From IMG/VR virus record IMGVR_UViG_3300019776_000846, positions 1 to 43,330 of that record: 43,330 bases of DNA, one strand, 5' to 3'. The DNA is from a virus. Of this stretch, positions 85 to 43,308 are shown piece after piece; the first letter of the stretch is position 1; every line of letters begins with the position of its first letter. The position numbers and the translations under genes were made by a program. Under the pieces are notes generated by a model, which made no database searches, was not told where the DNA came from, and worked only from the letters and a program-made list of their open reading frames with translations.

Positions 85-99
85 TTGGTGGAGATAAGC
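85..99. other. attL: attL core (15-bp direct repeat)
   Basis: TTGGTGGAGATAAGC is identical to 43232-43246. Fourteen of its bases are the 3' end of tRNA-Ala including the encoded CCA (read on the minus strand). The match stops on both sides, so this is the duplicated crossover region and the tRNA fragment left behind by integration. Confidence 0.93.
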
Positions 100-309: not shown

Positions 310-351
310 TTGACATATTTACCATTTTGGTAATAACATACCATTTTGTAA
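310..351 (+). promoter_or_regulatory. Promoter with phased operator pair of cargo operon
   Basis: TTGACA at 310-315 is a perfect -35 hexamer, with -10 candidates at 331-339. The palindrome TACCATTTTGGTA (320-332) fills the spacer. A second copy, TACCATTTTGTAA (339-351), begins exactly 19 bp later. It matches the element found in front of most phage operons. The arrangement implies that the phage regulator controls the cargo genes. Confidence 0.7.
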
Positions 352-371
352 CTTATCTAAAAGGAAACAAA

Positions 372-836
372 ATGGAATCGACTAAAAATCAGAGAATTAA
401 AGTTAGACCCGTTTTTGATACTGGGCAAGGCGATTTTGATGAACGCTACTCAATCTTTTTAAAAAAAGATGAGGAGTTTTTGGCTCAATTTAATCTATTG
501 CCCTGTCCTTTTTGTGGTCACTCTGAACATGACTTTATTGAAACGAATCGGGTCGATAAACGAAAGGTCAATAAGCTAGGCAAGACTCACAAAGGCATTT
601 CGATTACCCATCAGGTTGAATGTCAATATTGCGGGGCAACGGCATCAAAAGGTTATACCTACCCTGAAGGTGACGCGCTTACTGACGACATGATTGCAGA
701 ATCCTATGATGCGGCGGCATTGGCGTGGAATTCAAGAGCGGCAATATCGGAAAAGGCTTTCGAATTGGTCAATAAGCTCATTACTTCCGCAATTCAAGGC
801 GTCAATGAATTGCCTGCGTCGAAAGGAGGTTTATGA
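372..836 (+). CDS. Lar-like two-CxxC zinc-binding protein
   Basis: The 154-residue product has CPFC at residues 45-48 and CQYC at 84-87, followed by DAAALAWNSR near residue 112. This LPCPFCG...CxxCGA...A..AWN(R/S)R layout is the signature of the Lar restriction-alleviation family and related phage zinc-ribbon proteins. Lar proteins are known to alleviate type I restriction, but many relatives are uncharacterised. The start is ATG 372, behind AAGGAAAC; an upstream TTG at 285 would add a hydrophobic stretch lying over the operators and is rejected. It is the first gene of a three-gene operon beside attL and overlaps the next gene by ATGA. The zinc-finger call is secure; the restriction-alleviation role is inferred. 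Confidence 0.72.
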   Translation: MESTKNQRIKVRPVFDTGQGDFDERYSIFLKKDEEFLAQFNLLPCPFCGHSEHDFIETNRVDKRKVNKLGKTHKGISITHQVECQYCGATASKGYTYPEGDALTDDMIAESYDAAALAWNSRAAISEKAFELVNKLITSAIQGVNELPASKGGL

Positions 837-1300
837 CCAATTTAAAGAAAGCCAATTTTAATGTTGTGAAGGATGCAATCAAGCATCCCGAACAGCAATG
901 GGAGTCAATGGGTATTGATTTAATGACTCCTGTGGAATTACGTACCCTGAAAAAAATAGATGCAATCAAGGACTATTGGGATAGAAAAGAAAAGATGCAG
1001 GCGTTTTGCGCCAAAATTTTGAAGCGGGAAACCTTATTAGAGCCAAATATGTACATCAAGGTGGTTTATAAAAAGTCCTTTCCAGAGCCAATTTCAATGC
1101 TGGTAAAGCGCTTTTCCTTTAATTTTTATGCCGGCATATTTCAAATCAAAGGCGTGCGGATATTAAAAGATGGCATGGTTGGGCAAAAAGACGACCGATA
1201 TGCCGCTTTACAAGATTGTCAAATCTATCGCCGCAAACTCGACAACACATGGGAAAGGGTTACTTCCCTAGAATTTTTAAGGACAAATAATGCTAGTTGA
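833..1300 (+). CDS. Uncharacterised protein, middle gene of left-end cargo operon
   Basis: I do not recognise this 155-residue, lysine-rich protein. Its start lies in the ATGA overlap with the Lar-like gene, behind a strong GGAGG at 825-829, and its end overlaps the nucleotidyltransferase gene by 11 bp. Translation is therefore tightly coupled across the three genes. No signal peptide, membrane segment or metal motif is visible. The C-terminal half looks like beta strands alternating with basic residues. The operon lies at the phage edge and points away from the late genes, which suggests an accessory function expressed in the lysogen. No biochemical function can be named. Confidence 0.8.
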   Translation: MTNLKKANFNVVKDAIKHPEQQWESMGIDLMTPVELRTLKKIDAIKDYWDRKEKMQAFCAKILKRETLLEPNMYIKVVYKKSFPEPISMLVKRFSFNFYAGIFQIKGVRILKDGMVGQKDDRYAALQDCQIYRRKLDNTWERVTSLEFLRTNNAS

Positions 1301-1973
1301 TCCAAATACCTTGATGTATGGCGTAGCACCCAAAATCTTGCAACAGCTTGCTAAACGACTTGTCGTCAAAGAATATTGCGATGTAGAGGATATTTGCGAA
1401 GGGCTTGGTGTGCCTGAATCTGAAGCACGCCCTGTTATTAATGCGCTTATTCAAGACGGCTATCTTTCTCAAAACCCAATGGATGCCGAGGAGTATCTTC
1501 AAAGCACCTTGGAGACGAAAGAGACTGAGTGGTTTATTCCTACGCCTAAAGTTAATCGCTTGAATTTGGCAACCATCGGCAAGGGTATTAGTCGCGCCGA
1601 GGCGGATAAGTTGCTGAGCGAGGTCATTGATGCCGCGCGTGATATTAAATTGCACCAAGCAAATTATGGCGGTTGGTATGTAGCCAAATTGTATGTCTTT
1701 GGTTCCTATCTTGATAAAGATAAATCGCATTTAGGTGACTTGGATATTGCTTACACAGTCAATTTTGATAAGGCTTTTCGCTCGCAATATGATAAAAACC
1801 CAATTTTGTATGTTGAGGAGCGGACAAAAAAAGGAAGAAAAGCCCTTGTAAGATTAAATTGCCATAAAACACAAAAAATAAGCCTGCATGATTACGAAGG
1901 GGTTGAGTTGTTAAATACCGAGTGCGTTCAGGTGTATTCCCATGATGACCCACTCAATCTAACGATTGTTTAA
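1290..1973 (+). CDS. Winged-helix plus nucleotidyltransferase-domain protein
   Basis: The 227-residue protein has an N-terminal helix-rich part (about 15-60) that reads as a winged helix (DVEDICEGLGVPESEARPVI). The second half carries GSYLDKDKSHLGDLDI at about 138-153. That is the GS-x(10)-D-x-D active-site signature of the DNA polymerase beta-type nucleotidyltransferase fold, with G138, S139, D150 and D152. Minimal nucleotidyltransferases of this fold include AbiEii-type toxins, MNT antitoxins and antibiotic-modifying enzymes. A distant third carboxylate is not obvious. It is the last gene of the cargo operon, overlapping the previous gene, with a terminator hairpin at 2050. A toxin, defence or modification role is inferred only. 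Confidence 0.72.
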   Translation: MLVDPNTLMYGVAPKILQQLAKRLVVKEYCDVEDICEGLGVPESEARPVINALIQDGYLSQNPMDAEEYLQSTLETKETEWFIPTPKVNRLNLATIGKGISRAEADKLLSEVIDAARDIKLHQANYGGWYVAKLYVFGSYLDKDKSHLGDLDIAYTVNFDKAFRSQYDKNPILYVEERTKKGRKALVRLNCHKTQKISLHDYEGVELLNTECVQVYSHDDPLNLTIV

Positions 1974-1977
1974 CGTC

Positions 1978-2130
1978 CTATCGCTTCTTTCGCTTCTTGA
2001 TGGCTTTTTTTACAATCTGACGGTTCTCATTTGATATTCCCGCTGGCAGGCGCCCCATTCGACGGGGCGCTTCTTTTTGCGCCCTCATACTAATCAGAAT
2101 TTTCTCAAGTTGCGCCTGCAAGTCGCTCAT
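1978..2130 (-). CDS. Small basic protein at end of late operon (50 aa)
   Basis: Fifty codons starting MSDLQAQLEKILISMRAQ and ending in a lysine/arginine-rich tail (KKAIKKRKKR). The start ATG overlaps the stop of the preceding 48-residue membrane ORF (ATGA), which argues for coupled translation. A longer reading from 2238 would run through that ORF and lacks support. I do not recognise the family. It is the last gene of the leftward late transcript and ends 4 bp before the convergent cargo operon ends. Part of it is coded by the GC hairpin that serves as terminator on the other strand. Confidence 0.55.
   Translation of the reverse strand: MSDLQAQLEKILISMRAQKEAPRRMGRLPAGISNENRQIVKKAIKKRKKR
2050..2078 (+). 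terminator. Rho-independent terminator of cargo operon
   Basis: GCGCCCC (2050-2056) and GGGGCGC (2064-2070) form a 7-bp GC stem with a 7-nt loop, followed by TTCTTTTT on the plus strand. It lies 77 bp after the nucleotidyltransferase stop, inside a small gene coded on the opposite strand. Confidence 0.75.
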
Positions 2131-3155: not shown

Positions 3156-6011
3156 TCAAAAATTAAATGTGCCGGAAGTAGTAAAGGAATGAACCCAATG
3201 CGTGCCATTGCCATCGGTGTAGGACGTGACAGTTCCGCCAGTAGCTTGTTGTGAACCAGCGATATACGAAATAATGACAACGCCTTTACCGCCATACGAG
3301 CCATTGAGATTGGCTTGGTCGCCACCGCCACCGCCACCGCCACCTTTGTTGTCAGTACCATTGGTGCCCGAAGTTGTCGTGTTAGAGCCGTTACCACCGC
3401 CACCGTTGCCACCCAAGCCTGCGGTATTGTTGTTTTGCCCCACCCCACCGCCACCACCACCGGCGTAATACACCGCAGTACCAGTGATTGAGGAGCTAAT
3501 GCCGATACCGCCATTGGCGCCATTATTGGTGCCCACCACGTTATCGCCTGACGCGCCAGCGCCGCCACCGCCTGCGCCGCCATAACCAGTATTCGCATTA
3601 CCGCCGGCATAACCCTGACCGGAAGTGTATGAACCGCCCGAATGACTATTGCCATCGGATGAGCCACCACCGCCACCTGAACCACCCGCTGATCCATTGA
3701 CATCAAAGCCTGCACCGCCGCCACCAATGGCGGTAATCGGACTATTCAAACCAATTTCACTATTACCACCATTGCCCGATAAGCTCGTGGAAGGGGTACC
3801 ACCTAAACCTACGGTAATTGAATAACTGCCTGCGGGTATCGTGGTCGAACCTGTTAAGACGCCACCACCACCACCGCCGCCGCCGCGCTTGCCACCGCCA
3901 CCACCGCCGCCGGCAACCACTAAATAATCAGCGGACAGCGAACCGCTTGACCCTATGACTTCATCGGACGCGCTAACGCTTTCTGTCACATTGGCGTCAT
4001 AGCCAGCATGGGCGCCGTTTTCAGTAATGGTGTACACATACGGCGTCACACTCGCAAGACTCAATTCCATTTGGCTTTGCGGATTAAAGCTCGTAAATTT
4101 AAAGTAAACGACTTGCCCTTCATAAAAATTGGTCGGCAATAAATAACTAAAAGTGGCGTTGTCGTATTTACCAAAGGGCGCATTAATCGCGTGCGCTGAA
4201 ACCGATGAGCCGTACATTCCGCGGTACAGCCCTGTGAGGGCATAGCGCCCTGCCGATACCAAAGTGGCATTGCTATAGCCAATTAACTCACCGCCCACGT
4301 AGCAAAGGGATTGCCCATTGGCGGCATCCGTACCCGAGACGCTATACATCGCCCCTTGACCTTGGCTAATATCGACATACAAGGTGTTGACGTTATCGGG
4401 ATTGGTGCCGCCGTATGTTGGTAAATACGTATCCACGAAGCCCACAATCGCTTGATTACCAATCGCGCCAATTTGGTAATACGTAGTGCCATCGGTAGAG
4501 AGCCAAATATTTGCCCCGCCAAAGGTGGCTGGATCACCATTGGTCAGAATAGATACCTGCGCGCCTTGCGTATTGACAAGGGCATACGGGGGTTCAAAAA
4601 TAATCGGTGTATTGACAATCGGTGGTGTCACATAACCGTTTGGTTGATACCCTTGATTGCTAATTTGCGGCAATTGCACTGCCCATTGCGCGCCAAGTAA
4701 AAATTCTTCGGCTTCAATTTCTAATAAGCCTTGGTCATTCTCCGTAATACTCACAATGCGTACTGGCAGTTGCGATAAATTCATACCCGCTTGGGTGAGC
4801 GTCACAATATCCATCGGCTCTAAGAGTGCATATTCCCATGAGAGCGTAAAGCGATAGGTATTGCGTACAGAAATATTGCGATTTTTAATCAGGTTGACGC
4901 ACATCACGCCTGCCGCCGTATTACTAATAAATGAAGCTGTCATTTTGTTGGCAGTACGCAAACCAATTGCCTCGATACTCGCTTGATCTTTAGATTCCAC
5001 CAAGGCGGCGGTATAGCCCCGCACTCCATTAATGGTGGAATTATCAATACACTCCAATTGCCAACAGTTGTACGCATCATGGGTGTCGGCGCGACTCATC
5101 TCAATCGGATTCTCACCATCACGGCAAACGAAATCGTCGTCAGTCAAGTTGTATGCCGCTGAAGTTACAGGAGTAAACGTATAGCCATTCGCGGTGAGCG
5201 CTAAATCTCCATACGGAATAAATTTAAGCACCCCGTCTGACCAAACAGCGGCGGCGGCAGTACATTCCAAAATATTATTAAGGTAATCGCGCGCGGAGAC
5301 TTGGGTGGTAATCGCGTCAGAAAATGCAATGTTGAGCGAGCCTAAATAATTGGTGTAGCTATTCGGAGCGCTCACCAAACTCACCATATCTATTTGACTA
5401 CTTTTAAAACCTGCCCCATAAACAGGGTTGGTCAAAAAATCGACAATCATGGTCGCAGGATCAGCGTCCGCACTCGTCACGCCGGTACCGGCAAACTTCC
5501 CAATCACTTCAAACCACAATTGCGGAATCGTATTGCTTGACCCCAAATCCAATGCACCATTGGCAAGATACGCAATATTTTTGTACGGGTAGGCTTGCGT
5601 GGGGTGCTTACTGACTAAATAACTCCATGGAGTTTGTGTAGGCGAACCCACAAACGGTGTCAGTCCTAATGCGCCATACGTAGTGGTGCCGGTATTGTTG
5701 TACACCGTGCCAAAACCATTAACTTGCCCCTCGCAAATACCAAACATCACGCCTACGGTGTAGGTGTAGGTAATCGTCGTCGTCGTTGTTGTGCCTTGAC
5801 CAAAAATATGAGTCGCTACCCATCCACCGCCGCCGGTAGTTTGCGATTGCACGTGTTGAACGGGCGTAAAGTCGCCATACCAAAGTAAATTGCTCGATAC
5901 TTTTACGGAGCCATAAATCAACGGGACAGGCAAGGCTTGAGTTGCCGTTTGCAATGAAAGGCTACCGTACTTGGTTGCCTCCGTAGTAATCGTGGTGTTT
6001 TTGCCTTGCAT
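3156..6011 (-). CDS. Tail tip / central fibre protein with glycine-rich C-terminus
   Basis: This 951-residue protein is at the place of lambda J, directly downstream of the NlpC/P60, DUF2163 and DUF2460 tail-tip genes. The N-terminal 450 residues (LPLIYGSVKV-like start and the ECTAAAAVWSDG region) resemble the hub part of J-like tail proteins. Residues about 450-670 look like Ig/fibronectin-type beta domains. Near residue 678 there is one copy of the motif ESVSASD that is repeated 33 times in the 19051-24516 protein. Residues about 690-930 are extremely glycine-rich (runs of 7-9 Gly, with AGSYSITVGLGG). This matches the glycine-rich receptor-binding domains at the ends of phage fibres, so host recognition is likely here. 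Confidence 0.82.
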   Translation of the reverse strand: MQGKNTTITTEATKYGSLSLQTATQALPVPLIYGSVKVSSNLLWYGDFTPVQHVQSQTTGGGGWVATHIFGQGTTTTTTITYTYTVGVMFGICEGQVNGFGTVYNNTGTTTYGALGLTPFVGSPTQTPWSYLVSKHPTQAYPYKNIAYLANGALDLGSSNTIPQLWFEVIGKFAGTGVTSADADPATMIVDFLTNPVYGAGFKSSQIDMVSLVSAPNSYTNYLGSLNIAFSDAITTQVSARDYLNNILECTAAAAVWSDGVLKFIPYGDLALTANGYTFTPVTSAAYNLTDDDFVCRDGENPIEMSRADTHDAYNCWQLECIDNSTINGVRGYTAALVESKDQASIEAIGLRTANKMTASFISNTAAGVMCVNLIKNRNISVRNTYRFTLSWEYALLEPMDIVTLTQAGMNLSQLPVRIVSITENDQGLLEIEAEEFLLGAQWAVQLPQISNQGYQPNGYVTPPIVNTPIIFEPPYALVNTQGAQVSILTNGDPATFGGANIWLSTDGTTYYQIGAIGNQAIVGFVDTYLPTYGGTNPDNVNTLYVDISQGQGAMYSVSGTDAANGQSLCYVGGELIGYSNATLVSAGRYALTGLYRGMYGSSVSAHAINAPFGKYDNATFSYLLPTNFYEGQVVYFKFTSFNPQSQMELSLASVTPYVYTITENGAHAGYDANVTESVSASDEVIGSSGSLSADYLVVAGGGGGGGKRGGGGGGGGVLTGSTTIPAGSYSITVGLGGTPSTSLSGNGGNSEIGLNSPITAIGGGGAGFDVNGSAGGSGGGGGSSDGNSHSGGSYTSGQGYAGGNANTGYGGAGGGGAGASGDNVVGTNNGANGGIGISSSITGTAVYYAGGGGGGVGQNNNTAGLGGNGGGGNGSNTTTSGTNGTDNKGGGGGGGGDQANLNGSYGGKGVVIISYIAGSQQATGGTVTSYTDGNGTHWVHSFTTSGTFNF

Positions 6012-28569: not shown

Positions 28570-28727
28570 GGGGTTTTGTCCTCGTTGGGTTGGTCATCGG
28601 GTTGGGATTCGGTGATAAACATAGTGTCGCCATCATCAAAGAGCACTTTGAAGGTATCGCCCTCATACGGGACGAGTAAGGCACTGCGCCCGTCGATAGT
28701 CACGCGTTTGATTTCGCTATTTGCCAT
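28566..28727 (-). CDS. Small acidic protein after portal-MuF gene (53 aa)
   Basis: Starts MANSEIKRVTIDGRSALLVP and ends DDQPNEDKTP. The start overlaps the end of the portal-MuF gene by 11 bp and its stop overlaps the next start (ATGA). The first 40 residues look like a small beta barrel (RVTIDGRSALLVPYEGDTFKVLF...). It resembles small SH3-like phage proteins but no family is certain. Confidence 0.62.
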   Translation of the reverse strand: MANSEIKRVTIDGRSALLVPYEGDTFKVLFDDGDTMFITESQPDDQPNEDKTP

Positions 28728-31700
28728 TGGTTTGCATCCCTTTCCAAGCGCTCATATAAGCGCGGTAATATTTTTGCCATGCCGGTTTCACCCCTGCCGC
28801 TTTCAGATTGGCAAGGGTTATTTGACTTTTGCCGCCGCCACTTTGTAGATACGCGAGTTTGTTAATTTCAGCGAAAGTTTCTCTAATTGCCGTACCCCCG
28901 CTATTTTTATTTTCGTAATAGCCACTCCACATAGCGGCAGAGTATTTAGTAATCCCATCTGCCGCCTCCAATTGATAAGTCATATATGGGGAGGTGCTCG
29001 CGTGCATATTATTAATAACTTGAAATACGGGATAGTCTTTATTAAACGAATCAGGGTAACGCCCTGCAATATCCGCATGGGCTTCGGGATTGCGCTCAAT
29101 TGCCGCTTTTTCGAGTGCGTACTGTTGTTCGACTCGGCTTTGAATTTGATGTCCAATTTCATGCGCGACGGTACCGCGAATCCGCTTATCCATTTCTTCG
29201 TCAGTCAATGACCCGTGACGGTCATACGCAGTCATCGCATAGACATCAATATGCCCATCGGGATAAGACCTACCTGATACAAAATAATCTTTTTCACCAA
29301 TAGTTGATTTTTCGATTGCATTGGAAAGCACAATTTGATTGCTGTCATAGTAGTGCGAATCAGCAACCTCATTGGCAAGGCTTTGCACGTGCGCTGAGTC
29401 CATGCGATTCCAGCCAATTTGCCGAGTGGATTGGGTATTGCTTGACTCACCACCACCGCCGTCAGTCCACCGTCCCTGCTCGTCCCGCTCTTGGTCGTCG
29501 CTGTATTTGGCAAATTTATGCGTTGCTTGTAATTGCTTATATGCGTTCATGTAGGTGCGGTAATAGGTCTGCCATACCGGTTTCACGCCAATTGACTTTA
29601 GATTGTCGCGACTTAATTGCGCTTTACCGCCGCCACTATTGAGATACGAAATCGCGTTGATCTCAGCAAAAGTTTCATGCAAGGCTTCTGCCTTTGTTAC
29701 TACCCCTTCGTGATACAAGTCCCACATGGTCGTGGAATAGGGTGTAATGCCATCCGCATCTTCTAAACGATCAAATAGCCCGCGGGTTTCATGCAAGTGA
29801 TTAATGCTTTGCGCGACTTTGTTGGCAGGATCAAACCGATTGGCTAAATACTCTTTGGCAACGTCATCAAACATGGCATGACCGATTTCATGGGCTATCA
29901 CCTCTTTGACGCGATTATCCTTTTGGCGCTCATCATAGATACGCCACGCTTTTGTTTCAACCATCGAGGCGGGATATAACTGAACGCCCCCATTGGGATT
30001 CGTAGCGCCGGTGACTTGAAATACTTTGCCTTCAATTTCAACCGTGCGATTTTCATCTGATACGCTAATCCGGTTGGGATTAAAGCCTTGGTTTTGAGCT
30101 ACTTCTTTACCAAGGTTGCTCACGTGGTCAGTTAAGGCTTGTGAGACGCCATGATTCCAGCCAAGTAAGGCTTGGGCTTGATTACCTTCACCGCCCCCGC
30201 CATCTGTCCAGCGTCCTTGCTCGTCACGCTCTTGGTCATCACTGTATTTTTCAAACTTTTCACTGTCATCTTCACCGGCGAGCACGGGCAATATGTCGCA
30301 TCGACAATTGGGGTGCGCGAGCGGCGCATCATCACCCGATTGAAATAGCTCATCAAAATCAATTGCCCCTTGGTCGGCGTTCGCGGCGCAATCATCACAC
30401 TCATCGGCGCCAGTAATCCACCGTTTTTTAACTTCAATGCCGCTATCAATCGCTTCTTGATACGCTTCCATATTGCCTTGTATATCGGCATTACCAATCT
30501 CGGTGCGGGCAATCGTTTCGGCGCGTGCCGGACTAAAAGCGTAGTTTTCCACCAATTTATCGGCAAGTTGTTGATTGCTCCATCCTTCTTCAATGGCTTG
30601 GGTAATATCGCCGCGCAAGTAGTCGCGTGTCGCATCGGAAGCGGCTTCACTATCGGCTAATGCCCATTGCGGATTGGGATTTTCGACCAATTGTCCATCG
30701 ACCCATTTTTTCCCTACCATCTCAGCGGCGCGGTCTTGGGCGTATTGCTCAGCCCGCTCATTGGCAAGGTTCACGTCCGCGCCGGCAATATTTTCCAATT
30801 GAATCTGCACGGCGGCGGCTTTGACCCCATCGAGCGCCATCGCGCGCAAGTACGGCTCGACATCCTCGGCAAAATCATCCCAATTGACCGTAATGGTGGC
30901 TAACAGCTTATCGACTGTCTCTTTGGATTCATCGACCGCTTTACCCATTGCCATGCGCCTGCCTTCAATGGCTAGGGCGTATTGCTCGGCTTTCTTACGC
31001 AGTGCCGCCTTAGTAACCCTTCGCAAGCCATTCAGATTTCGTCTGACCGCGCGGCGCTCTCGGTTTAGCGGGGTGATCCCCCGCACCGGCTTTTTTAGGG
31101 CTTTCTCCATCTTTTCAGAAAGCGGATTGTCCACTGCCGGCGGTGATGCCGTCTTACTTTCTACCGGATTAGTATCGCTTGTCTTATTTGGTAGTGTTTG
31201 CGTGCCAAGTAAAGGCGGCGGGGTCTCAGGTTCCTCGAGGGCATCTAAACCCAATTCTTCGCGCACCTCATTGGCAGTCTTGATGCCGGCATTGATATAA
31301 ATTTGATTAATCTGCGCTTGCATCATCGGATCAGGCGAGGCTTCATCTTCCCATTGCATACATAAATCGTCATAACCAAAATACTTGACGATGATGTAAT
31401 CAATCAGCGATTTAATCCACTGCATTACCGGTTGCAAGCCTTCTTCTTCCGCCGTGAGTTTGTTAGTGGTGGCTGTAGCGCGATTGACATCACTGATAAA
31501 AGCGGACGGGGCAATTGAAAAGGCATAGCAAATCACGCGCGCTAACCATTCGTCATAACTGTCTTTGAGCAATTCTTCTTTGGTATTGACCGAGGTCACA
31601 CCATTGGGTACAAACATGGTCTGACGCCGTGCACCGGTATTGCCAGCGAGCATACTTGCCCACCATTCGCGAAATTGCGCTACTTGATCCGGATTCCATT

Positions 31701-32484
31701 CCGCCGGCACACTCAAAATGCGATCCACCGCATCACCGTCGGTGTAATACTGGAGTTGACTGACTTGCCGGCGCAGTGCCGTATTGACCGTTAAGAGAAT
31801 TTGCTCTACCGGACTATAGCCATACACTTTATTGGTACGTAAATTGCGTGGCTTGTAAATAAGTTCATCACGCGAATAATCAACCGCGGGCACGCCTTTG
31901 AGAATTTGTTGATAGGCGACTTCGGGCGGTACGGGGGTTCTCCCCTGCCCGTCAATCACACGCTTAATGGTCGCGCCATCCATCGGCTCAAGTGCATACA
32001 GCGTATTACCGTAGGTATAGCGCGGATACAGTGTCGGTGCATCACACACGAATAAATCTTCGAGCACCATGCGAAGCCACTCCTCCCATGAGTGCTCTTT
32101 ATCGGGAAAGCGCAAAAAGTTTTGGATTTCTTCACAGCGCGCGTCTTGCTCTTTTCCTTCATCAACGGGTTTGATGAGAAAAGTCATTTTGCACAACATA
32201 TCTTTACGCGTTTCAATGACCAAACGCAAAATATCTAAGCCATCTGCCAAGGCACGCAATTCGGCAAACGTGACCCCCTCATAGACTTTGGGGCGTTGCT
32301 GAAGGTTGTAGCCGGTTTGATAATCAAACTGACGCCCTTCGGCTTGCTCTTGAGCGAATGGCGGTAAAGGTTGTGAGGGACTAAACCAATCGGACGGTTC
32401 AGCACCACTGACCACATACTTCACGCCGCGCACCACGCGGTCAATCACGCCAGTGGCGATGGGGGTTTTTACAGGCTCAGCCAT
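28717..32484 (-). CDS. Portal-MuF fusion with two C-terminal HEIGH metallopeptidase-like domains
   Basis: Residues about 1-430 form the portal (MTFLIKPVDEGKE, DAPTLYPRYTYGNTLYALEPMDG, SVPAEWNPDQVAQFREWW, TTNKLTAEEEGLQPVM). Residues about 440-740 are a MuF head-morphogenesis domain with ARTEIGNADIQG and the zinc-like CDDC...HPNCRCD. Next comes the linker YSDDQERDEQGRWTDGGGG at about 747, and a domain with HEIGH (about 864) and ETFAEIN; linker and domain then recur (linker about 992, HEIGH about 1108, ETFAEIN again). The HExxH plus downstream Glu pattern fits zinc peptidases. MuF proteins elsewhere carry C-terminal effector domains delivered with DNA, so the peptidases may be injected. Portal and MuF are certain in outline; the peptidase activity is inferred. 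Confidence 0.87.
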   Translation of the reverse strand: MAEPVKTPIATGVIDRVVRGVKYVVSGAEPSDWFSPSQPLPPFAQEQAEGRQFDYQTGYNLQQRPKVYEGVTFAELRALADGLDILRLVIETRKDMLCKMTFLIKPVDEGKEQDARCEEIQNFLRFPDKEHSWEEWLRMVLEDLFVCDAPTLYPRYTYGNTLYALEPMDGATIKRVIDGQGRTPVPPEVAYQQILKGVPAVDYSRDELIYKPRNLRTNKVYGYSPVEQILLTVNTALRRQVSQLQYYTDGDAVDRILSVPAEWNPDQVAQFREWWASMLAGNTGARRQTMFVPNGVTSVNTKEELLKDSYDEWLARVICYAFSIAPSAFISDVNRATATTNKLTAEEEGLQPVMQWIKSLIDYIIVKYFGYDDLCMQWEDEASPDPMMQAQINQIYINAGIKTANEVREELGLDALEEPETPPPLLGTQTLPNKTSDTNPVESKTASPPAVDNPLSEKMEKALKKPVRGITPLNRERRAVRRNLNGLRRVTKAALRKKAEQYALAIEGRRMAMGKAVDESKETVDKLLATITVNWDDFAEDVEPYLRAMALDGVKAAAVQIQLENIAGADVNLANERAEQYAQDRAAEMVGKKWVDGQLVENPNPQWALADSEAASDATRDYLRGDITQAIEEGWSNQQLADKLVENYAFSPARAETIARTEIGNADIQGNMEAYQEAIDSGIEVKKRWITGADECDDCAANADQGAIDFDELFQSGDDAPLAHPNCRCDILPVLAGEDDSEKFEKYSDDQERDEQGRWTDGGGGEGNQAQALLGWNHGVSQALTDHVSNLGKEVAQNQGFNPNRISVSDENRTVEIEGKVFQVTGATNPNGGVQLYPASMVETKAWRIYDERQKDNRVKEVIAHEIGHAMFDDVAKEYLANRFDPANKVAQSINHLHETRGLFDRLEDADGITPYSTTMWDLYHEGVVTKAEALHETFAEINAISYLNSGGGKAQLSRDNLKSIGVKPVWQTYYRTYMNAYKQLQATHKFAKYSDDQERDEQGRWTDGGGGESSNTQSTRQIGWNRMDSAHVQSLANEVADSHYYDSNQIVLSNAIEKSTIGEKDYFVSGRSYPDGHIDVYAMTAYDRHGSLTDEEMDKRIRGTVAHEIGHQIQSRVEQQYALEKAAIERNPEAHADIAGRYPDSFNKDYPVFQVINNMHASTSPYMTYQLEAADGITKYSAAMWSGYYENKNSGGTAIRETFAEINKLAYLQSGGGKSQITLANLKAAGVKPAWQKYYRAYMSAWKGMQTNGK

Positions 32485-34430: not shown

Positions 34431-34443
34431 TACCATATTGGTA
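34431..34443. promoter_or_regulatory. Operator palindrome between terminase and early genes
   Basis: CAAATAC-TACC-ATATT-GGTA-TATTTT is a perfect core with AAATAC on the left. The flank orientation points to the rightward 34572 gene, while the leftward terminase gene starts 34 bp away on the other side. It may serve both directions. Confidence 0.7.
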
Positions 34444-34857: not shown

Positions 34858-34870
34858 TACCAAAAAGGTA
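34858..34870 (+). promoter_or_regulatory. Operator palindrome (symmetric A-tract core)
   Basis: TACC-AAAAA-GGTA preceded by ATT, followed by ATATAC. TAATAT next to the right arm resembles a -10. A degenerate right arm CGGTAGTAATT is at 34891-34901. Confidence 0.62.
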
Positions 34871-35625: not shown

Positions 35626-35788
35626 ACTCTTTAAAATCTTCCGGCTTGGAATATTTGGTGGCATCCATAAGGATGTCAAAGGCTTCCCACTTTAAACCAT
35701 ACTCAATACATTCGAGTAGCTTTAAGTAGATGGGGTCATCGTCAAACGATGAATCCTCGCTTTGATTATCCTCACTTGCCGGTACCAC
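35624..35788 (-). CDS. Small acidic protein after the repressor gene (54 aa)
   Basis: A GTG start at 35788 overlaps the repressor stop by 17 bp and the product reads VPASEDNQSEDSSFDDDPIY then LKLLECIEYGLKWEAFDIL. The first part is acidic and the second helical. Codon use and overlap look genuine, but the only ribosome site candidate is weak (AAAGG), so it may be translated after the repressor by coupling. Such a partner could modulate the repressor. This is inferred. Confidence 0.45.
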   Translation of the reverse strand: MVPASEDNQSEDSSFDDDPIYLKLLECIEYGLKWEAFDILMDATKYSKPEDFKE

Positions 35789-36158
35789 GTTTTTTGCCTT
35801 TGACCAAATTATCCAATTCGCCGAGCACCACCGATTGCGCCTTGAGCGGGTCTTGGCGATACATGGTGAGACAAGATTGGATAAACGCTTTTTCTTGTGC
35901 CGTTGCTGACACGGGACGCGTTGTTGGTAGGCTGTCCATGTAGCCTACGGGAAGATTCAAGCCCCGTTCGATATTGCGCGCAGTCCGCGCACCAATATTT
36001 TTACGTTGGGTATGAATATGGGATAAATAGGCTTGGCTCATTCCTAATTCTTCTGCAAAGGCTTTTAACATCCCGTGGTCGGGTAAATCTGCGTGCTCCA
36101 TTTTAAATTTGGCAAAGATGCTGGCAAAGTTGGTGTAACGAATTTGTGAAGTATCCAT
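35772..36158 (-). CDS. XRE-like helix-turn-helix repressor without peptidase domain
   Basis: The 128-residue protein has a helix-turn-helix around residues 32-66 (LKAFAEELGMSQAYLSHIHTQRKNIGARTARNIE). The rest (FIQSCLTMYRQDPLKAQSVVLGELDNL) is a short helical tail; a LexA/CI-like S24 peptidase domain is absent. It faces the Cro-like gene across an intergenic region with several copies of the operator palindrome, as expected of a prophage repressor. Lack of the peptidase means that RecA-driven self-cleavage cannot induce it in the lambda manner. Confidence 0.78.
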   Translation of the reverse strand: MDTSQIRYTNFASIFAKFKMEHADLPDHGMLKAFAEELGMSQAYLSHIHTQRKNIGARTARNIERGLNLPVGYMDSLPTTRPVSATAQEKAFIQSCLTMYRQDPLKAQSVVLGELDNLVKGKKRGTGK

Positions 36159-36199: not shown

Positions 36200-36247
36200 T
36201 TCCTTTTTGGTAGCATTTGGAGATTACACCATAAAACCTTTTTGGTA
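36200..36247 (-). promoter_or_regulatory. Two operators upstream of repressor gene
   Basis: TTCC-TTTTT-GGTA (36200-36212, followed by GCATTT) and AACC-TTTTT-GGTA (36235-36247, followed by GCAAGT) are 35 bp apart. The flank orientation points toward the leftward repressor gene, which starts 42 bp from the first site. Both have one mismatch in the left arm. Confidence 0.68.
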
Positions 36248-36298
36248 GCAAGTATCTAGGGAAACCCCTTAATTGCTCAATATTTTTCTTTCATTTAC

Positions 36299-36330
36299 TA
36301 CCGTTATGGTATAAATTTACTTAAAAGTTA
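36299..36330 (+). promoter_or_regulatory. Phased operator pair before Cro-like gene
   Basis: TACC-GTTAT-GGTA (36299-36311) preceded by ATTTAC, followed 19 bp later by TACT-TAAAA-GTTA (36318-36330). TATAAA (36310-36315) at the right arm is a likely -10 of the rightward promoter. The Cro-like ATG is 46 bp from the first core. Confidence 0.72.
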
Positions 36331-41336: not shown

Positions 41337-41368
41337 TACCATTACGGTATTTAATTACAAATTTGATT
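41337..41368 (+). promoter_or_regulatory. Operator pair before excisionase gene
   Basis: AAATAC-TACC-ATTAC-GGTA (core 41337-41349) is a perfect copy of the phage-wide element. A weak second copy, TACA-AATTT-GATT, begins 19 bp later (41356). The ATG is 30 bp after the first core. Confidence 0.68.
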
Positions 41369-41379
41369 AAGGTAAGACT

Positions 41380-41583
41380 ATGAGTGAATCCACACCAAAA
41401 CTACTGACTGTCAAAGAGACCGCCGCGCTACTTACCGTTGGGATTTCAACGGTTTGGAATCTGACTCGCTCCGGTCAATTGCCCAATATCAAGATTGCTG
41501 ACAAAGTAACGCGCTGGGAAGAAGCCCAAGTGATGCAATTTATTGCATCCAAGCGCTCCGCCCAAGCGAGTGACACTAGATAG
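41380..41583 (+). CDS. xis: AlpA/excisionase-like helix-turn-helix protein
   Basis: The 67-residue protein reads LLTVKETAALLTVGISTVWNLTRSGQLPNIKIADKVTRWEEAQVMQFI, a MerR-type winged helix as in AlpA and phage excisionases. It is directly beside the integrase gene; its stop overlaps the convergent integrase end by 8 bp. A perfect operator lies just upstream, so it is under the same control as the lytic genes, which makes it the most probable excision director. The symbol is used by role. Confidence 0.72.
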   Translation: MSESTPKLLTVKETAALLTVGISTVWNLTRSGQLPNIKIADKVTRWEEAQVMQFIASKRSAQASDTR

Positions 41584-42955
41584 TTGCGAGTTGCTCATTT
41601 GCGGTAGAACCCAAGCGAAGCGCGGCTTGCGCTCTTAAATCATCAATGTAATCCGCCCACTTTTGCATCATTTCAACGCGCGCATCCCAATGTTCGGTAC
41701 GGTCATAAGCGCCTTGGTAATTGTCATCTTCTTTGACGTGCGAAAGCTGAATCTCACACACCTTGGGAGGAAAATTTAAGCGTTCTTCACACATCGTTCT
41801 TCCCATAGAGCGAAAACCGTGCGGAGTTAATTCAGATGGGGAGATTCCGACCCGCTCTTTTAAATAATTATTGAGAGTCATGTTGCTCATCATGCTGTAT
41901 TTTTTACCCCAAATACCACCAAAGACATATTTTTGATCGCCGGTAATTGGTTGCATGGTTTTGAGAATGGCAAGTGCTTGTTTAGAGAGTGGTATCTCAT
42001 GCTTCTTTTTCATTTTCATTTTGCTTGCTGGAATTAACCAGTGCCCTTTTTCCCAATCAATCTCTGTCCACTCCATTTTTCGCAATTCAATGGGGCGACA
42101 CCACACGTAAGTTAAAAACCGCACCCCCCAAATTGTTTGCGGTTGTGGGTTGCCTTTAGGGTTATCAATGGGGTCTTGGGCAATCAAGTGCATCACTTCA
42201 CCAACCCGCTTGGGTTCGCGAATACTTGGGATGGGCGTACTTTTTGGTACGGTAATCACGCCTTTTAAGTCGCCCGCAGGATTCGCATGATTTTTAGGAC
42301 ACCAACCATGCTGAATGGCATACCGAAAAATCGCTTTTAAATCCGTGCCCAAGCGCTCTGCCATATCTGCGCCGCTTTTACTACGCGCAGTTTTCATGGC
42401 GGCAACCACTTGGATCACTTCAATATCGACCACGGGAGTTGAACCAAACGCGGGGTAGGCAAAACGCTCCAAACGGCGCTGGCATTTAAAGGCGTAGTCT
42501 TTGCTCCAAGGCGTGTCACCTGTTGGATCAACCTTTTCTTTAATGTATTCAAGCGCGGCAGATTTAAAGCTATTGTCCGAAGCTATTTGGTCGCGGGCTT
42601 TTGCAAGTGCTTTGACTTGGGCAGGATCAATATTGTTGGCAAGGTGCTTTTTGGCGGCATCGCGCATCTCCCTTGCATCGGCAAGGCTGACCAAGGGATA
42701 GGAGCCAAAAGACGCCAGCTTTTCTTTGCCGCCTTTGGGAAAGCGGTATTTCATGTGCCAGTGCTTGCCACCTGAAGGGGTGACGAGCAAGTACAAACCC
42801 CCCGAATCTGCGGCTTTATATGCCTTTTCTTTGGGCTTTAAATTCTTAATTTTGGTGTCTTTATCCGCCCGTATTTTTTCCTCTTTGGGCAGGCTTTTTT
42901 CCCCATTTGAAGGGGCAATAAATGGCAAAACTACAGCGCTTTCGCTACGGTTCAT
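41576..42955 (-). CDS. int: P4-type tyrosine integrase
   Basis: The 459-residue protein has an N-terminal arm-binding domain (KEKAYKAADSGGLYLLVTPSGGKHW, DUF4102 type) and a catalytic domain with Arg287 (CRPIELRKMEW), a lysine in KMKMKKKHEIPLS (about 312-318), HGFR (His379, Arg382), LSHV (His406) and the nucleophile Tyr417 in YQGAYDR. All six active-site positions can be seen. A good GGAGG precedes the ATG. P4-type integrases act at tRNA 3' ends, as found here with tRNA-Ala. The gene ends tail to tail with xis. Confidence 0.96.
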   Translation of the reverse strand: MNRSESAVVLPFIAPSNGEKSLPKEEKIRADKDTKIKNLKPKEKAYKAADSGGLYLLVTPSGGKHWHMKYRFPKGGKEKLASFGSYPLVSLADAREMRDAAKKHLANNIDPAQVKALAKARDQIASDNSFKSAALEYIKEKVDPTGDTPWSKDYAFKCQRRLERFAYPAFGSTPVVDIEVIQVVAAMKTARSKSGADMAERLGTDLKAIFRYAIQHGWCPKNHANPAGDLKGVITVPKSTPIPSIREPKRVGEVMHLIAQDPIDNPKGNPQPQTIWGVRFLTYVWCRPIELRKMEWTEIDWEKGHWLIPASKMKMKKKHEIPLSKQALAILKTMQPITGDQKYVFGGIWGKKYSMMSNMTLNNYLKERVGISPSELTPHGFRSMGRTMCEERLNFPPKVCEIQLSHVKEDDNYQGAYDRTEHWDARVEMMQKWADYIDDLRAQAALRLGSTANEQLATI

Positions 42956-43219: not shown

Positions 43220-43232
43220 AATTAGTGAATAT

Positions 43233-43308
<76 letters not shown>

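Follow-up and report, generated by a model that had tools for sequence, protein, structure and literature searches.

Stoperator, or multi-operator, immunity, for example in mycobacteriophage L5, relies on one repressor site present in many copies across the genome. In phage lambda, ral is expressed from pL, early in lytic growth. According to reviews (PMC3874165, PMC12707154), Ral makes EcoKI, an enzyme of type IA, act as a de novo methyltransferase. The Lar family of the Rac prophage (PF14354/TIGR03655) is recognized by the signature CPFCG...CxxCGA...WNxR. Among nucleotidyltransferases (NTases), MntA of the type VII toxin–antitoxin systems (PF01909) is a GSX10DXD adenylyltransferase in which D39, D41, and D71 bind two Mg ions (PMC7641770). 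In HEPN pairs, the minimal nucleotidyltransferase (MNT) gene comes first in nearly all cases (PMC3710099). An NTase and a winged helix are also involved in the AbiE/MenT nucleotidyltransferase toxin–antitoxin systems (DUF1814), where the winged helix resides in a separate antitoxin.

We describe a three-gene operon at the left end of an integrated temperate phage. The phage occupies the window, that is, the whole stretch of 43,330 nt that was analyzed, and the prophage is bounded by a repeated att core, the right copy of which lies beside an integrase gene. We favor, at a probability of about one half, the reading that the genes form a horizontally acquired, moron-like accessory operon, controlled by the phage's own immunity repressor and serving early counter-defence. 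The operon is new as a combination, and its components are of known kinds. Feature coordinates are collected in Table 1.

Table 1. Coordinates of the operon, its control sites, and the prophage landmarks
Feature	Position	Strand	Description
Left att core TTGGTGGAGATAAGC	85-99		Exact repeat at 43232-43246; prophage boundary
Predicted promoter	310-339	+	TTGACA (310)-N18-TAACAT (334-339); 10/12 matches
Perfect operator TACCATTTTGGTA	320-332		Promoter spacer of the cargo operon; TACC-N5-GGTA palindrome
Second, degenerate operator TACCATTTTGTAA	339-351		19 bp on; overlaps last base of the -10 element
Gene 1, P0001	372-836	+	Lar-like zinc-ribbon protein, 154 aa; Pfam PF14354, PHROG 599
Gene 2, P0002	833-1300	+	Orphan basic protein, 155 aa; coding signal
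Gene 3, P0003	1290-1973	+	227 aa; winged helix (~4-66) and minimal nucleotidyltransferase (~100-205)
Predicted intrinsic terminator	2048-2072	+	Hairpin and T-run
Operator at early promoter	34858-34870		In spacer of an early + strand promoter; flanks attTACC-N5-GGTAata, same as cargo site
Phage repressor candidate	35772-36158	-	HTH protein, 128 aa; PHROG 5736 'transcriptional regulator', 3e-7
Operator-like sites	36200-36311		36200, 36235 (imperfect), and 36299 (exact); between repressor and cro-like gene
Tyrosine integrase	41576-42955	-	PHROG 1 integrase, 2.3e-54; beside right att copy
Right att core TTGGTGGAGATAAGC	43232-43246		Within 3' end of tRNA-Ala(GGC), 43233-43308

The two copies of the 15-bp att core match exactly, and no such pair is expected by chance. 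Bases 1-51 resemble in sequence, with no ARAGORN call, the 5' part of a neighboring tRNA-Glu gene. Searching with both tRNA ends and the spacer between them, we recover empty tRNA-Glu/tRNA-Ala sites; the window flanks match Polynucleobacter genomes best, for example P. yangtzensis, so the host is Polynucleobacter or a very close relative. Every locus read among those fetched is an empty site, with no prophage at the same att position. A 22-nt inverted repeat (68-89 and 301-322, 82% complementary) surrounds the left att core and the cargo promoter; these could possibly be arm-type sites of the integrase.

The preliminary description had proposed three tightly overlapping genes opposite to the late genes, beside attL, with their own promoter, operator pair, and terminator. 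Coordinates, Shine-Dalgarno sites, and coding signal agree on the genes. The first two open reading frames share an ATGA overlap and the last two overlap by 11 nt; all three are on the + strand, opposite to the late genes on the - strand, and are preceded by AAGGAA, AAGGAGG, and AAGGA, respectively. When scored by the phage's own codon use, the real frame beats the five other frames in 3 of 3 genes, with scores below those of most phage genes. The att core and the start of gene 1 place the operon next to attL, and the promoter TTGACA-N18-TAACAT carries a perfect palindrome in its spacer together with a degenerate second copy. The terminator stands in part: the hairpin (9 pairs, 7 of them G-C) is the best terminator-like site within the first 4 kb, but it is probable rather than proven, since its fold energy is unexceptional (z = -1.28) and it sits inside a short opposite-strand late ORF (1978-2130). 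The G+C content of the cargo block is 40.5%, versus 46-48% in the remaining phage. Its low G+C and weaker codon fit, as acquired cargo would be expected to show, mark the operon as accessory, as does its lack in the phages most closely related (see below).

The analysis yields its strongest positive result on regulation, in a network of operators. The palindrome TACC-N5-GGTA occurs in 10 exact copies in the window, where 0.245 would be expected, and it ranks first in an unbiased scan for palindromes once homopolymers are set aside. Phages with related terminases contain 10 copies in 1.15 Mb, which points to a site specific to this phage's own repressor. No operator in the phage scores higher than the copy in the cargo promoter, a rank that is partly circular because the scoring matrix was built from exact sites, this one included; the exact-match count is unaffected. 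Further copies precede early genes at 34431, 34858, 34949, and 38361, with another at 41337. Those at 34431, 34949, 38361, and 41337 display an extended left flank, ATACTACC or like it, before N5-GGTA; this flank and that of the cargo and 34858 sites would be two promoter layouts for one repressor. The cluster between the candidate repressor and the cro-like gene is presumed to be the phage immunity region, and we infer from this position that the repressor, whose counterpart in the closest near-complete relative (G865) is 43% identical, is the putative binder of TACC-N5-GGTA. As in stoperator systems, one repressor site is present in many copies; this phage differs in having only about a dozen, mostly intergenic and upstream of genes, and in the palindromic form of the site. 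Copies are also seen at the starts of late genes (12886, 18407, 27527 with one mismatch, and 28142), either 8-71 bases ahead of a start codon or where two genes meet; these may be stoperator-like internal repressor sites or secondary promoters.

A phage operator inside the promoter spacer suggests that the cargo operon belongs to the repressor regulon. By analogy with lambda pL and ral, the operon is probably off in the lysogen and on early in infection or induction. Such predicted repression makes a defence or toxin set at work in the lysogen less likely and favors a counter-defence role in the lytic phase. It bears directly on one alternative, in which the prophage expresses the genes and they shield the host from other phages through defence or superinfection exclusion. 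Such cargo commonly lies beside att, and the NTase models of PADLOC candidate PDC-S09 weakly match many members of the gene-3 family (best 1.1e-4), but the operator predicts silence in the lysogen, and genes 1 and 2 match no defence model; we consider this alternative quite unlikely, and rank it below an accessory counter-defence operon.

The product of gene 1, P0001, scores 40.9 bits (2.5e-10) against Pfam PF14354 (Lar), above the cut-off of 28.6, in keeping with its earlier designation as Lar-like; it also matches PHROG 599 (3.6e-11) and reaches 36.0 bits against NCBIfam TIGR03655, under the subfamily cut-off of 39.6. The Lar signature is represented by CPFC (45-48), CQYC (84-87), and WNSR (119-122), which provide two CxxC pairs and the WNxR motif. 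P0001 differs from Lar in being much longer, with approximately 40 extra residues before the domain and 30 after, and in a long insert that separates its two CxxC pairs. A single-protein scan of viral contigs returned no relatives. Many Lar-like phage zinc ribbons carry their name from homology only, which weighs against our preferred reading, as do the extra length of P0001 and the missed subfamily cut-off. The early, repressor-controlled placement predicted for the operon recalls that of ral in the pL operon.

The preliminary description of P0003, the product of gene 3, as a winged helix fused to a GS-x10-DxD nucleotidyltransferase holds at the level of the family. The motif is exact (G138, S139, D150, L, D152). 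On its own, P0003 stays below threshold against models of NTases and of winged helices: 17.9 bits against Pfam PF01909 (cut-off 21), 16.5 bits against the MntA model NF047752 (cut-off 60, E 0.0058), and an IclR-like winged helix (E 0.0012); there is no DUF1814 match. The MntA match, like those to PDC-S09, covers the shared NTase motif only. Single-protein scans of viral and genome contigs returned no relatives. In a search of Burkholderiaceae, matches were mostly restricted to the winged helix (residues 4-66) of regulator-length ORFs and were set aside; one chromosomal gene (L144/P0004) is a full-length relative of similar length. Via this gene we reach full-length relatives of both proteins, encoded by Arthrobacter, Pseudarthrobacter, Paenarthrobacter, Curtobacterium, and Thalassospira plasmids. 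These actinobacterial and alphaproteobacterial proteins (L147-L159) have the architecture and motifs of P0003 and are 20-28% identical overall.

In an 11-sequence alignment of the family, the invariant columns include G138, S139, G149, D150, and D152 (P0003 numbering), and a C-terminal RS-x2-3-IS motif is common to most relatives. The family profile matches bona fide MNTs over the GS and DxD motifs (hhalign 77%, E 2e-5), and a short phage relative (L246) passes PF01909 (21.9 versus 21 bits). A single-sequence AlphaFold model of P0003 is too poor (pLDDT 36) to confirm the catalytic fold or to serve a fold search. The plasmid relatives have no constant neighbor, and no Lar-like or gene-2-like neighbor is annotated beside them, indicating that they are solo genes. 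These solo winged helix–NTases of mobile elements form an unnamed family, the interesting residue of the operon. Members are also found in two unrelated, larger phage contigs of 81 and 69 kb (L246:5980-6405 and L247:6001-6786), the first with the NTase part only and no winged helix. A second branch of the family consists of proteins of 440-471 aa (L152, L153, L154, and L163), found on plasmids from Blastomonas, Novosphingobium, and Bosea as well as in one genome, in which an N-terminal part built as gene 3 is followed by a further C-terminal region.

Does gene 3 belong to a known toxin–antitoxin system? In such a HEPN/MNT (type VII) or AbiE-type pair, the NTase would act as antitoxin or toxin with gene 2 as its partner. 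P0003 shares with MntA the exact motif (PMC7641770) and a weak NTase-domain profile match, and the genes overlap. P0003 departs from MntA in its fused winged helix, the lack of a HEPN partner, a score under the NF047752 cut-off, and a C-terminal signature of its own, the RS..IS.. motif of most relatives, in place of MntA's. From AbiE/MenT it differs in that the winged helix is joined to the NTase. The HEPN motif Rx4-6H is absent from genes 1 and 2, the NTase comes last in contrast to the gene order of HEPN pairs (PMC3710099), the relatives of gene 3 stand alone and share no fixed partner, and the promoter appears to be under phage-repressor control. We regard a toxin–antitoxin pair as scarcely probable, and it too ranks below the counter-defence operon.

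Alternatively, P0003 could be a regulator of transcription or host takeover, with an NTase domain that is inactive or a mere ligand sensor. The N-terminal IclR-like winged helix and its resemblance to regulator-length ORFs are consistent with this idea, as is an uncertain third carboxylate: the candidate third Mg-binding acid, E176, for which MntA uses D71, aligns with D or E in most relatives, not all. The same uncertainty counts against our preferred reading. Against it, G138, S139, D150, and D152 are invariant, which suggests that P0003 has retained catalysis. We regard a pure regulator as very unlikely, and likewise place it below our preferred reading.

Gene 2 remains an orphan. Searches of Pfam, NCBIfam, and PADLOC, and of phages, plasmids, and viral contigs, turned up no relative of P0002. 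PHROG 8376 (E = 0.014) could not be confirmed as its family, and matches in Polynucleobacter are weak, frame-broken, and at chance level (one locus, L160, inspected). Motif searches find neither Rx4-6H nor CxxC; by motif, P0002 is thus neither a HEPN toxin nor a zinc ribbon. Structure prediction without an alignment was too poor for a fold search. Within the accessory-operon reading, gene 2 explains nothing, and we count this against that reading.

Do the three genes travel together? We compared 50 phage records whose terminases are related (32-79% identical); several of the records are fragments. Neither gene 2 (0/50) nor the gene-3 family (0/50) is present; Lar-domain matches occur in 4 records, 1 of which is over the cut-off, and none is close to P0001. 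The closest near-complete relative, G865 (terminase 71% and repressor 43% identical), is without all three cargo genes. These counts mark the trio as accessory and lend no support to a dedicated three-part system. The co-occurrence test proposed in the preliminary description thus fails, with the gene-3 relatives on plasmids standing alone; of its proposed anti-restriction, defence, or toxin set, the Lar and winged helix–NTase family calls survive, and joint conservation does not.

These results give weight to a serious rival, in which three unrelated accessory genes, each with its own job, were gathered by chance under one promoter. Co-conservation was found nowhere we searched, and gene 2 is an orphan. 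Conversely, the tight overlaps suggest coupled expression, and the genes may have a single origin, given that no close relative occurs in the collections. On balance we consider a chance collection unlikely, though deserving of real attention.

In the counter-defence reading that we prefer, the repressor would sit on the promoter-spacer operator in the lysogen and hold all three genes off. Upon infection or induction, the cargo would be transcribed early, away from attP and toward the end of the late region. By analogy with Lar and Ral, the Lar-like protein may blunt host restriction, pushing a type I enzyme toward modification. The winged helix–NTase would transfer a nucleotide from Mg-NTP to a target in the host or phage, with the winged helix possibly directing the enzyme to DNA; this modification would probably be a further step in host takeover or in counter-defence. 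A bolder and rather doubtful version holds that the winged helix–NTases are an undescribed mobile-element family, borne as solo genes by conjugative plasmids and phages, in which the winged helix finds DNA or a DNA-bound host defence complex and the NTase nucleotidylates it, so that covalent counter-defence would stand beside a Lar-type modulator and gene 2.

If the counter-defence reading is true, an enzyme of covalent modification joins the anti-restriction cargo of phages, and the solo winged helix–NTases of plasmids and phages become a testable family. If it is false, the locus is an ordinary accessory operon. The operator map additionally offers a simple prediction of when each accessory gene of the prophage is on.

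Elsewhere in the prophage, the tail-tip protein (951 aa, - strand) yielded no close relatives of the phage; it has a C-terminal glycine-rich stretch of more than 200 residues (3156-3900), and matches in the phage collection cover residues 6-666 only, with the glycine-rich end outside. A 1255-aa ORF (28717-32484, - strand) adjoins the terminase large subunit; its relative in G865 aligns to residues 1-735 only, and the remainder may thus be an extension or a fusion.
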